Part shown: positions 7,589 to 22,331 of the stretch, piece by piece
Position numbering within the stretch: the first letter of the stretch is position 1
How the letters are laid out: the number at the start of each line of letters is the position of its first letter
Assembly (NCBI GenBank): GCA_002774425.1
Contig: PEYJ01000029.1
Span: 1 to 42,283, forward strand
Direction: 5' to 3'
DNA length: 42,283 nucleotides
Origin: Parcubacteria group bacterium CG08_land_8_20_14_0_20_48_21
Lineage (GTDB): Bacteria; Patescibacteriota; Patescibacteriia; UBA1544
Notes under the pieces: generated by a model
The model's input: the letters and a program-made list of their open reading frames with translations, nothing else
Told to the model about the DNA's origin: nothing
Database searches by the model: none
Position numbers and translations under genes: made by a program

Positions 7589-8872
7589 ATGTTTCACGAA
7601 ACAAATAAAAAACACGTGGTGATTCTTGGCGCAGGATTTGGCGGTGTGCGCGTCGCGCTGAAGCTTGCCAAACAAAAAACAGTTGCTTTGGATATTGCAC
7701 TCGTTGATAAAAACGACTACCACGAGTTTCACGCAGATTTATATGAAGTGGCATCCGCAATTTTTTCCGATGGCAAAGAAGCTCCTAATGAAAAAACCGC
7801 GTTCCACAATTTACGTTCTACAGCCGTTATTCCGCTGCAAGAAATTTTTCGTGATATGGGCGTTCGGTTGGTCAAAGGCGAAGTAACGGATGTCGCGGTA
7901 AAGAATCATGCCGTAAGCGTGCGTAATGCCGCCACACGTTCCGAAGAAACACTTGCTTATGACATTCTGGTTATTGCTTTGGGAAGTTGTACGAACTACT
8001 ATGGCATACCGCATCTCAAGGAGTTCGCGCTGCCGTTTAAAAATACGGATGACGCGCTGAATATTCGTAATCGCATAGAAGAATCCTACATCTACAAACG
8101 TTGGAACGAACGGTTGCGCATCGTGGTTGCGGGGGGCGGACTCACCGGCTGCGAATTAGTGGGAGAACTTGTGGGCTATGTGCGTAAACTTGAGCAAACT
8201 TACGGGCGTCTGCCGGAATATACCGAACTGATTATCATAGAGAAAGAGAACGAACTACTTGGTCAAGTGCCCGTGTGGATGCGGAAAGTCGCATACGAAC
8301 GTTTACGAAACTTGGGAGTATTGGTGCAATGCGCAATGGAAATTAGCGAGGTTACCGCACAACAACTCGTGCTGCGTAACGGCAAAACAGTTTCCTATGA
8401 TGTGCTGGTATGGACGGCGGGTATTGTGGCACAGCCCGTTATCCAATCACTGCGCGGGCTTGCGCATAACCACCACCAATGTCTGACGGTTACCAAAACC
8501 TTGCGCGTGGCAAACTACACGGATATTTTTGCTTTGGGAGATGCCAGCTACTGCTATGATGCAACCACTAATTATGCAATGCCAGCAACCGCGCAAACCG
8601 CAGTAAGCCAGGCAGACGTTGTTGCGGAGAACGTTCTGTGTACGTTGCGGAAAAAAAATCTCCTCCCGTACCGCCCCATCAAAACAATGTGGCTCATTTC
8701 GTTAGGGGGTAAGTTTGCACTTGCGTCGCTGTATGGCTTTCGCGTTTGGGGTATGGCGGGGTGGCTGCTCAAAAGAAGATTTTCCTACAGTTATTTCAAC
8801 AGCATAGTACCAAAAGCGCGAGCCTGGAGGATGTGGTTCCGTTCATTGCAGATATACGGGCGCAATGACTAA
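7589..8872 (+). CDS. ndh: Type II NADH dehydrogenase-like FAD oxidoreductase
   Basis: The 427-residue protein has an N-terminal FAD-binding GAGFGG motif (14-19), a second dinucleotide fold with GGGLTGCE (182-189) for NAD(P)H, and the second FAD motif TDIFALGDAS (about 311-320). This is the arrangement of single-subunit, non-proton-pumping NADH:quinone oxidoreductases. The C-terminal stretch (about 380-420, SLYGFRVWGMAGWLL) is amphipathic and could attach the enzyme to the membrane. It sits 56 bp after the ROK gene. No quinone biosynthesis or terminal oxidase gene is in the window, so the electron acceptor is unclear and a soluble NADH-oxidising role remains possible. Confidence 0.85.
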   Translation: MFHETNKKHVVILGAGFGGVRVALKLAKQKTVALDIALVDKNDYHEFHADLYEVASAIFSDGKEAPNEKTAFHNLRSTAVIPLQEIFRDMGVRLVKGEVTDVAVKNHAVSVRNAATRSEETLAYDILVIALGSCTNYYGIPHLKEFALPFKNTDDALNIRNRIEESYIYKRWNERLRIVVAGGGLTGCELVGELVGYVRKLEQTYGRLPEYTELIIIEKENELLGQVPVWMRKVAYERLRNLGVLVQCAMEISEVTAQQLVLRNGKTVSYDVLVWTAGIVAQPVIQSLRGLAHNHHQCLTVTKTLRVANYTDIFALGDASYCYDATTNYAMPATAQTAVSQADVVAENVLCTLRKKNLLPYRPIKTMWLISLGGKFALASLYGFRVWGMAGWLLKRRFSYSYFNSIVPKARAWRMWFRSLQIYGRND

Positions 8873-8914
8873 AACCCATCTCAAAAATGCTCATACCCTT
8901 CCCTATTCTCGGGA

Positions 8915-8943
8915 TTGACACAACCTCTATTTTCTCATAGTAT
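8915..8943 (+). promoter_or_regulatory. Consensus promoter of a small transcription unit
   Basis: A perfect TTGACA (8915-8920), a 17-bp spacer and TAGTAT (8938-8943), just after the ndh gene. It drives a region with no long gene that ends at the strong terminator at 9178, giving an RNA of roughly 250 nt. Confidence 0.65.
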
Positions 8944-8979
8944 ACGGTAGCCGGCATGGAGCCGAGATAAGGAGAAGGC

Positions 8980-9072
8980 ATGCGCGTGCAAAAAGCTATC
9001 AGAAAATTTGTGGTGCTCTGTCGCAGGAAAAAGGAGGGAGATGACCCTCTCATAGAGTACAACGGTATCTAG
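8980..9072 (+). CDS. Possible 30-residue basic peptide
   Basis: A short frame (ATG 8980, TAG 9070-9072) begins MRVQKAIRKFVVLCRRKK and ends with an acidic half containing EGDDPLIEY. It is preceded by AAGGAGAAGGC, a good Shine-Dalgarno (AGGAG) seven bases before the ATG. It lies inside a transcription unit with its own consensus promoter (8915) and terminator (9178). I recognise no homologue, and coding is not proven. The same RNA contains near-identical tandem units of 14 bases (GAGTACA-CGGTAT, 9055-9068 and 9072-9085), so it could instead be a regulatory RNA or both. Confidence 0.4.
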   Translation: MRVQKAIRKFVVLCRRKKEGDDPLIEYNGI

Positions 9073-9177
9073 AGTACAGCGGTATTGGTGACGGTATCGG
9101 TGTGTGCGTTGCGCTCAAAAACCTAGTTTCTTTACGCGCTTCTTGGGGCGCGCATGATCTTTTTTCTACCGACTTAC

Positions 9178-9209
9178 GGTACGAGGTTCTGCCTCGTACC
9201 TTTTTATTT
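9178..9209 (+). terminator. Strong intrinsic terminator before polA
   Basis: A perfect 9-bp stem, GGTACGAGG (9178-9186) with CCTCGTACC (9192-9200), a five-base loop, then TTTTTATTT. It ends exactly where the polA promoter begins, insulating polA from upstream transcription. Confidence 0.9.
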
Positions 9210-9236
9210 GCCCGTACTGCCAGGGAGTGCTACTAT
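9208..9236 (+). promoter_or_regulatory. polA promoter
   Basis: TTGCCC (9208-9213), a 17-bp spacer and TACTAT (9231-9236) with extended TGC. The predicted start is near 9243, about 19 bases before the favoured ATG at 9262. The other in-frame ATG at 9241 would lie at or upstream of the RNA start. Confidence 0.6.
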
Positions 9237-9261
9237 AAGCATGCTTGTTCCGCGTACTGCT

Positions 9262-11985
9262 ATGGCATCCAAAAGAAAAACTTTTATTATCATTGACGGT
9301 CATGCATTGCTGCACCGCGCTTGGCATGCGCTGCCGCCTCTCACCACAAAAAAAGGCGTGGTGGTCAATGCGGTGTACGGTTTTACCACGGTGCTGCTCA
9401 AAATTTTCAAAGACCTGCACCCCGACTATTCGGCTGTTGCTTTTGACGTTGCCGCGCCGACCTTTCGCCATAAACGCTTTGCCGCGTACAAAGCGCATCG
9501 GGAGAAACAGCCTCAAGAACTTTATGACCAGCTGCCGATTCTCAAGGATGTTTTGAGAGCTTTTCGGGTGGCGATATTTGAGAAAAAAGGATATGAAGCA
9601 GATGATGTGATCGGGACGCTCACCGCATTGGCCGGTTCAACTGACAATATTATTGTGACGGGCGATCAGGATACACTGCAGCTCATTGACGCGCATACGT
9701 GGGTGTACGCCATGCAAAAAGGCATAAGTGAATTCGCTATTTATGATGCGCAGGCGGTACAAGACCGGTATGCTTTGGACGTGGCGCAGCTTATTGATTA
9801 CAAAGCGCTGCGCGGCGATCCTTCCGACAATATTCCGGGTGTGCAGGGAGTGGGCGAAAAAACCGCAACTGATCTTTTGCAGCAATTCGGCAGCCTTGAA
9901 GAGCTCTATCGTCATCTGGAAACGGCAACTTCCAAGGCGCGGAAATTGAAGCCTGCGGTACGGGAGAAACTGCTCACCCATCAACATGATGCGTTCCAGA
10001 GCAAAGAACTTGCGACCATTGTGCGCGACGTGGCAATTCCCTTTAACCTTGATGACTGCGCAGTGCAGCCCCCCGATAGGGAGCGTGCGGTAGCGTTGTT
10101 TCAAGAGTTGTCATTTGCATCGCTTATGAAAAATATTCCGCATAGCGGCGACGCAACATCGCATGTGCGGAAAAACGCCAAACTTCCCCGCGGGTATCGG
10201 CTCATTACCAAGCGCGCCGATTTTGAGGAGTTGCTCAAACTGCTTGCGGCGGCTCCTGCATTTGCCTTGGATACGGAAACAACCTCGCTCAACACGCTTG
10301 ACGCAAAAGTTTTAGGTATCAGCGTATCTACAAAAGTTGGTGAAGCGGCATACTGCGCATTGCCTGATGCAGCCGGGGAGAGACAAAAGTGGCTTGCCGC
10401 CGCAAAACTGGTTTTAGAAAATCGGCACATTGTAAAAATAGGACACAACCTGAAATATGACATGGAAGTTTTGGCAAACGACGGAATTCGGGTTGCAGAA
10501 CCTCTCTTTGACACCATGGTCGCTTCGTATCTACTGAACACGCAATCACGCGGCAACGATCTGGATACGCTGACGCTTCTTGAATACGGACATACGATGA
10601 TACCCCTTGAACGGCTTTTGGGTCCGAAAGGGAAGGATCAAAAAACCATGGATGAGATTCCTCCGACGGAAGTGGCGGAATATGCGTGCGAAGACGCGGA
10701 TTACGCGTGGCGGCTCTATGAGAAGTTTTTACCTCGTCTCAAAAAAGAGCGCATGGAGACGCTATTTACTGATATGGAGATGCAGCTTATTCCCGTGCTG
10801 GTTGCCATGGAGCGAGAAGGTATAGCTGTTGATATGAGCTTTCTTCGGGAGATGAGCATGCATCTCAAAAAACGTATTACATCGCTTGAGCGGAATATCT
10901 ATGCGCTTGCAGGTTCCGAATTTAATATCGCCTCGCCCCTCCAATTAAAAAAAATACTTTTTACAGATCTAGGGATTGACCCGAAAGGTCTTGCGAAAAT
11001 CAAGACTGGCATTTCCACTGCTGCGAGTGAATTGGAGAAGTTGAAAGGGATCCATGCCATAATTCCGCTCATCAGTGATTTTCGCGAAGTGACGAAATTG
11101 TTGTCAACCTATGTGGATGCCTTGCCGAAACTCGTGCGCAAGGACACCGGTCGCGTGCATACGAGTTACAATCAAACGGTTGCCGCAACAGGTCGCCTAT
11201 CATCATCAGATCCGAATTTACAGAATATACCCATACGTACAGAGATCGGCAAGAAGATCAGAAAGAGCTTTATTGCAAAAAAAGGATCGGAGCTTTTAGC
11301 TGCGGACTACTCGCAAATTGAGTTGCGCATCGTTGCCTCGCTCGCTCATGACCGCAAAATGCTTGCCGCATTCCACAAGGATCAAGACATTCATGCAACG
11401 ACTGCTGCGGAGATCGCCGGATGTTCCTTAGAAGAGGTTACACCGGAAATGCGCCGCAAAGCAAAAACCGTGAATTTCGGCGTGCTCTATGGCATGGGTG
11501 CGCACGGACTTGCGGCTTCCGCCGATATCACCTATGCTGAAGCACGGGAATTCATCGGCGCCTACTTTACGCTCTATAAGGGCGTTGCGAAGTACATGGA
11601 AGATACCAAAGCGTTCGCGCGCACACACGGATATGTCAAAACGCTTTTCGGACGTGTACGATATTTTCCGGACATTCTCTCGGGTCTGCCACAGGTGCGC
11701 GCCCAAGCGGAGCGCATGGCCATCAATATGCCAGTGCAGGGGACCGCAGCCGATATCATGAAATACGCCATGATCAAACTCCATCGTCTGCTTGATCCGG
11801 ATGAAGCGAAAATTCTGCTCCAAGTGCATGATGAATTGGTGCTTGAAGTGCGGAAAGGATTTGCAGAGAAAACGGCAAAGACGGTTCGGGTGTGCATGGA
11901 AGGTGTGCACCAACTGGCCGCGCCACTCAAGGTCAATATCACAGTAGGGAGGAATTGGGGGGAAATGAAGGAGTTCACATCATAA
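9262..11985 (+). CDS. polA: DNA polymerase I
   Basis: The 907-residue enzyme carries all three domains of full-length Pol I. The 5' nuclease domain (about 1-290) has IIDGHALLHRA, YEADDVIGTL, TGDQDTLQL and the helix-hairpin-helix NIPGVQGVGEKTA. The proofreading 3'-5' exonuclease domain (about 310-495) keeps its catalytic residues: DTE (D337, E339), NLKYD (D400) and YACED (Y474, D478). The polymerase domain has motif A ADYSQIELR (D682), motif B RRKAKTVNFGVLYG (731-744) and motif C QVHDELV (H856, D857). The start at 9262 begins the conserved domain and fits the promoter at 9208. Retained proofreading is notable because many bacteria have lost it in Pol I. It fills gaps and removes RNA primers. 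Confidence 0.97.
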   Translation: MASKRKTFIIIDGHALLHRAWHALPPLTTKKGVVVNAVYGFTTVLLKIFKDLHPDYSAVAFDVAAPTFRHKRFAAYKAHREKQPQELYDQLPILKDVLRAFRVAIFEKKGYEADDVIGTLTALAGSTDNIIVTGDQDTLQLIDAHTWVYAMQKGISEFAIYDAQAVQDRYALDVAQLIDYKALRGDPSDNIPGVQGVGEKTATDLLQQFGSLEELYRHLETATSKARKLKPAVREKLLTHQHDAFQSKELATIVRDVAIPFNLDDCAVQPPDRERAVALFQELSFASLMKNIPHSGDATSHVRKNAKLPRGYRLITKRADFEELLKLLAAAPAFALDTETTSLNTLDAKVLGISVSTKVGEAAYCALPDAAGERQKWLAAAKLVLENRHIVKIGHNLKYDMEVLANDGIRVAEPLFDTMVASYLLNTQSRGNDLDTLTLLEYGHTMIPLERLLGPKGKDQKTMDEIPPTEVAEYACEDADYAWRLYEKFLPRLKKERMETLFTDMEMQLIPVLVAMEREGIAVDMSFLREMSMHLKKRITSLERNIYALAGSEFNIASPLQLKKILFTDLGIDPKGLAKIKTGISTAASELEKLKGIHAIIPLISDFREVTKLLSTYVDALPKLVRKDTGRVHTSYNQTVAATGRLSSSDPNLQNIPIRTEIGKKIRKSFIAKKGSELLAADYSQIELRIVASLAHDRKMLAAFHKDQDIHATTAAEIAGCSLEEVTPEMRRKAKTVNFGVLYGMGAHGLAASADITYAEAREFIGAYFTLYKGVAKYMEDTKAFARTHGYVKTLFGRVRYFPDILSGLPQVRAQAERMAINMPVQGTAADIMKYAMIKLHRLLDPDEAKILLQVHDELVLEVRKGFAEKTAKTVRVCMEGVHQLAAPLKVNITVGRNWGEMKEFTS

Positions 11986-15633: not shown

Positions 15634-15663
15634 GTTATACCACGTTTGATTGACAAGTGTCAA
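15634..15663 (-). promoter_or_regulatory. truB promoter
   Basis: On the minus strand TTGACA (15663-15658), an 18-bp spacer and TATAAC (15639-15634). The predicted leader is about 25 nt. Confidence 0.6.
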
Positions 15664-15678
15664 AAAACACGCTAAGGT
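15650..15678 (+). promoter_or_regulatory. infB promoter candidate
   Basis: TTGACA (15650-15655), a 17-bp spacer and a weak TAAGGT (15673-15678). The -35 is the mirror arm of the truB -35: TTGACA-AG-TGTCAA (15650-15663) is an inverted repeat shared by both directions. The -10 overlaps the infB ribosome binding site (AAGGTGG), so this call is uncertain. Confidence 0.4.
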
Positions 15679-22034: not shown

Positions 22035-22331
22035 ATGAATAAAGCGGAACTTATTACCGCTGTTGCCGAAAAAACTTCACTACCGCGCAAGCAGGTTGAA
22101 GAAGTGGTGGAATCAATGCTGGAGATGATTGTACGCACGCTCAAAAAAGGAGGTAGCGTGCACTTAACGAGCTTTGGTACGTTTTTGGCGCGCAGGCGCG
22201 AAGCGCGCATGGGAGTGCATCCACGAAATCCGCAACAGCGCATCCACATGCCTGCGGTAACCGTGGCAAAATTTCAAACAGGCAAGGGACTGAAAGATGC
22301 GCTGAAACACCATGACGCTACTTCCCTATAA
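22035..22331 (+). CDS. hup: HU/IHF-family DNA-binding protein
   Basis: The 98-residue protein has the HU fold: the helical N-terminus MNKAELITAVAEKTSLPRK, the second helix EEVVESMLEMIVRTLKKG, the core strand GSVHLTSFGTFLARRREAR, and the beta-arm with RNPQQRIHMPA, whose proline inserts into the DNA minor groove. It ends with AVTVAKFQTGKGLKDAL. The dimer bends and compacts DNA. The start is set by the exceptionally strong Shine-Dalgarno; upstream in-frame codons are untranslated. It is transcribed towards tRNA-Arg. Confidence 0.95.
   Translation: MNKAELITAVAEKTSLPRKQVEEVVESMLEMIVRTLKKGGSVHLTSFGTFLARRREARMGVHPRNPQQRIHMPAVTVAKFQTGKGLKDALKHHDATSL

Follow-up and report, generated by a model that had tools for sequence, protein, structure and literature searches.

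What is very probably a real, autonomous transcription unit (8915-9208, Table 1) occupies the gap that separates polA from an NDH-2-like oxidoreductase gene (stop at 8872). The unit looks like a real gene of an ordinary kind, namely a small gene specific to its lineage, and the reading towards which we lean is a small messenger RNA in which a Shine-Dalgarno (SD) sequence leads translation of a 30-residue peptide. The window (the whole stretch of 42,283 nt that was analysed) belongs to a genome of 876 kb in 41 contigs from the Patescibacteria (CPR), and the nearest matches to its polA are also from this group. Genome statistics given below rest on about 320 kb, made up of the window and fourteen 20-kb stretches of the same genome. 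The start of polA is most likely at 9262, because relatives start with the equivalent of MASKRKTF and because the longer listed frame crosses the terminator.

Table 1. Features of the locus between the oxidoreductase gene and polA (window coordinates).
Feature	Position	Strand	Remark
NDH-2-like FAD/NAD oxidoreductase gene	7589-8872		upstream neighbour
Promoter TTGACA-17-TAGTAT	8915-8943	+	TTGACA 8915-8920, 17-bp spacer, TAGTAT 8938-8943
Predicted transcript, ~258 nt	8950-9208	+	deduced from promoter and terminator; 5' end placed ~7 nt past the -10
Shine-Dalgarno AAGGAG	8969-8974	+	5 nt before ATG 8980
Predicted long-range helix, 5' arm	8970-8996	+	covers SD and start codon; fold prediction
ORF, 30 aa + stop, MRVQKAIRKFVVLCRRKKEGDDPLIEYNGI	8980-9072	+	SD-led; codon score in real-gene range
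Tandem repeat copy 1, TAGAGTACAACGGTAT	9053-9068	+	overlaps ORF end
Tandem repeat copy 2, TAGAGTACAGCGGTAT	9070-9085	+	begins with the TAG stop codon
Predicted long-range helix, 3' arm	9130-9167	+	overlaps alternative local hairpin 9135-9152
Intrinsic terminator	9178-9205	+	stem-loop 9178-9200, 10-pair stem, 3-nt loop, TTTTT
Likely separate polA promoter TTGCCC-17-TACTAT	9208-9236	+	candidate read from sequence; extended -10 (TGC before TACTAT)

A self-contained transcription unit with a consensus promoter and a terminator had been proposed in the first-pass annotation, and this proposal is well supported. The promoter is of a class found 28 times as an exact TTGACA-17-TAnnnT match in the ~320 kb of its own genome, versus 3.6 expected, and 17 bp is clearly the best spacing for TTGACA/TAnnnT pairs in the same sample. 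In a promoter scan with loose criteria, the region showed no excess over shuffles (3 versus 2.3). The stem-loop of the terminator has a fold z-score of -5.9; it precedes the next gene, 60 bp 5' of the likely polA start. For a region of such length, an SD ahead of an ORF of 30 codons or more has a p of about 0.03, and the combination of promoter, SD and ORF of at least 20 codons is found in seven distinct units (the present locus being one of them) in ~320 kb, versus 0.2 expected. With a terminator added, the combination never appeared in shuffles (0 cases), while a strong terminator is present at this locus. The strength of this terminator and the separate candidate promoter downstream of it, which has 8 of 12 consensus matches and falls under the threshold of the promoter scan, argue for independence of the unit from polA.

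What gives the SD its weight is the genome in which it is found. The 16S rRNA of this genome keeps its anti-SD at the 3' end (...GGATCACCTCCTTT), to which the AAGGAG of the locus is complementary (anti-SD pairing against ACCTCCTTT). In a sample of 209 ORFs (150 aa or longer), seven first ATGs (3.3%) follow an SD motif, versus 3.7% of internal ATGs, and since the frequency at starts equals this background, ordinary genes here start without an SD. A T at position -1 is seen at 65% of these gene starts versus 27% of internal ATGs. Leaderless initiation was rejected as a general explanation of the genes lacking an SD, as no clear -10 spacing peak was found. For the IF-2 gene the probable start is ATG 15687 (+), 8 nt past the -10 of a TTGACA-17-TAAGGT promoter (15650-15678), which would make the gene nearly leaderless; the alternative GTG start at 15657, which gives a longer frame, would fall inside this promoter. 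Because SD motifs are not a background feature of starts in this genome and the anti-SD is intact, the perfect and well-spaced SD before 8980 is meaningful.

Genes that do carry an SD form a minority. Of the ORFs of 70 aa or more, 14 have a strong SD and stand apart from the 289 that lack one. The 14 include a 98-aa protein at 22035 (+) in the window, HU-like by appearance, whose perfect AAGGAGGTGAT SD is exceptional in this genome. Seven of eight scanned proteins from promoter+SD units have no Pfam family and the eighth is a NUDIX protein, whereas size-matched controls without an SD resemble L10, L7/L12, SmpB and similar core proteins (recognised by eye). Members of the minority set have a TTGACA-17-TAnnnT promoter, a leader of ~30-80 nt and AAGGAG or AGGAGG, and encode mostly small orphan proteins; besides the present locus, one is located at 297-3 (-) in the window and others on six of the fourteen further stretches, with several grouped on one contig (C39). 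The 8915-9208 locus fits this set of promoter+SD units, and it is mainly for this reason that we prefer a translated small gene.

The frame itself, which had been announced as 31 codons behind a good SD and indeed comprises 30 residues and a stop, has a codon score of 0.10 bits per codon; this exceeds the score of 28% of real gene pieces and is reached by 4 to 9% of spurious ORFs. As a six-frame scan gave positive scores in the same frame 5' of the ATG too, this codon evidence is weak. The peptide has no match in Pfam or NCBIfam, and a search of 381 genomes of the same class gave no homolog above chance level (best other E 0.016 per genome, a value expected about six times by chance). It is basic, with 8 Arg/Lys among 30 residues, FVVLC is its only hydrophobic run, and its mean hydrophobicity is negative in every 18-residue window. 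A cationic amphipathic helix is conceivable for its N-terminal half, with an amphipathic moment not above that of shuffles of the same residues (p 0.17). Judging from charge alone, our guess is that the peptide is lineage-specific and contacts membranes or RNA.

No relatives of the unit were found. Rfam gave no match at gathering score, in agreement with the initial statement that no known RNA family is involved, and the matches up to E = 10 were at chance level. Searches of the 381 same-class genomes with blastn (locus DNA) or with a single-sequence covariance model returned the locus itself only, and plasmid and phage searches returned nothing similar. The genomes searched (56 nearest and 380 class genomes) are all class-level relatives, none of them from the same order or family. 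Their polA genes are at most 56% identical and have other upstream neighbours, gene order around polA is not conserved, and the regions upstream of polA contain nothing similar to the unit. The lack of any homolog of DNA, peptide or structure means that evolutionary evidence of coding is missing, which we counted against the coding reading; it is not discriminating, because missing relatives are expected at class-level distance for any fast-evolving intergenic gene.

Other identities were considered and rejected: a repeated element (there is no paralog in the genome) and a misplaced tmRNA or RNase P RNA (both are found on other contigs). Neither the 6S model nor the small SRP RNA model of Rfam matches the genome. 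Under stricter filters, the latter also matched none of 76 class genomes, versus 12 of 14 control genomes; judged by this small model only, these genomes may have lost their SRP RNA, or it may have diverged past recognition. Since the model misses all 76 genomes, its silence is uninformative for the locus.

The unit also contains a tandem repeat. Its two copies had been described as 14-base units at 17-bp spacing with one mismatch; spacing and mismatch stand, while the length does not, as the copies extend to 16 nt. The 16-nt tandem repeat is beyond chance, with no direct repeat of 15/16 within 60 bp in 1000 shuffles. Only one other short-range repeat pair, a weaker one, exists in the window, and no further copy of the repeat unit (at most one mismatch) was found anywhere in the genome.

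The tandem repeat and the predicted fold bear on the first alternative, a non-coding or dual-function small RNA acting by base pairing or protein binding, in which the frame would be incidental or secondary and the RNA would be closed by a 5'-3' helix, with hairpins and the repeats inside. We consider this alternative rather doubtful. The whole transcript (8950-9208) has a fold z-score of -2.6 and its middle part (9009-9105) one of -2.8, the closing helix is predicted at -30.4 kcal/mol (p 0.007 with arms shuffled, 0.044 for the 5' arm against any downstream partner), and both repeat copies could expose an identical AGAGUAC.CGGUAU face. However, the fold is unexceptional once the terminator is removed (z = -1.4), as is that of 9073-9177 (z = -0.15), family and covariance searches were silent, and a non-coding RNA would have no need of an ATG with a perfect SD before it, a combination seldom seen in this genome. 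Of the products initially left open (small protein, regulatory RNA, dual-function RNA), the first is favoured by genome context and, weakly, by codon use, while the RNA options received no support from conservation.

The helix that would hide the SD and start codon is of modest significance; because of it, the unit may instead be a structured or dual-function RNA. In the predicted folds, the SD is largely open in transcripts ending at 9125 or earlier, and in the full-length RNA nearly all of the SD and AUG is paired; the latter was counted against the coding reading as well. Modelled on this one sequence, the two states would fit a gate over the translation start, shutting upon completion of the RNA. 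Under the preferred reading of a translated small gene, the vegetative-type promoter would yield a transcript ending at the terminator, and the strong SD would recruit a ribosome to the 30-codon frame, producing the basic peptide. The 105-nt 3' untranslated part may then fold back onto the SD and start codon; such an autoregulatory fold would lower translation from the completed RNA and leave the nascent transcript open. The unit would belong to the promoter+SD minority of mostly orphan small genes in a genome otherwise without SD. A bolder version, to which we give a low probability, is that the locus represents a hidden class of dual-function RNA, i.e. SD-led orphan mini-genes in an SD-less genome, where use of an SD would mark separately controlled accessory genes and where, at this locus, the SD would be further gated by the 5'-3' helix.

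It is improbable that the unit is a regulated leader of polA, in which transcripts from 8915 would either stop at 9178-9205 or read through, with hairpins at about 9135-9165 as the switch. Leader and gene would be on the same strand with the terminator shortly ahead of the likely polA start, and CGCG-rich segments (8979-8990, 9133-9142 and 9147-9157) can form mutually exclusive pairings. Yet the candidate polA promoter past the terminator is better placed, the predicted folds show no antiterminator that would open the terminator stem, the relatives have nothing similar upstream of polA, and the peptide contains no single-amino-acid run typical of amino-acid attenuators. Equally improbable is a degenerating relic, or a long gap in which promoter and terminator go unused, the frame is due to chance and no functional product is made: in favour of this are the failure to find relatives among the searched genomes and the unconserved gene order around polA, but promoter, SD, frame and terminator are intact, co-linear and jointly far from chance.

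Among known systems, the unit shares with bacterial orphan genes for small proteins, whose single-gene mRNAs have fewer than 50 codons, its own promoter, an SD, a short frame, an intrinsic terminator and the lack of homologs; unlike such genes elsewhere, it lies in a genome that starts most genes without an SD, and its translation is a prediction. With type I toxin mRNAs such as hok, in which 5'-3' pairing hides the SD, it has in common a small frame and a predicted long-range pairing over the SD and start codon, but its peptide has no membrane-spanning hydrophobic segment and its fold is modestly significant. No promoter-like site for an antisense RNA was found on the minus strand of 8000-10000 at the scan threshold either; the peptide and this result speak against a type I toxin-antitoxin system. 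Dual-function sRNAs such as SgrS likewise combine a short frame with a structured, terminator-ended RNA; unlike SgrS, the unit has no target, Hfq-type evidence, homolog or regulatory context. Finally, Spot 42 RNA of enterobacteria is encoded by a small RNA gene adjoining polA, but the Spot 42 gene sits downstream of polA, whereas the present unit lies upstream of polA and has no Rfam match.

Taken singly, the locus is one more orphan mini-gene, and the SD context of its genome matters more. If SD sequences are confined almost wholly to a few promoter-proximal, mostly orphan genes, this genome would provide a clean natural test of the role of the SD in reduced cells.
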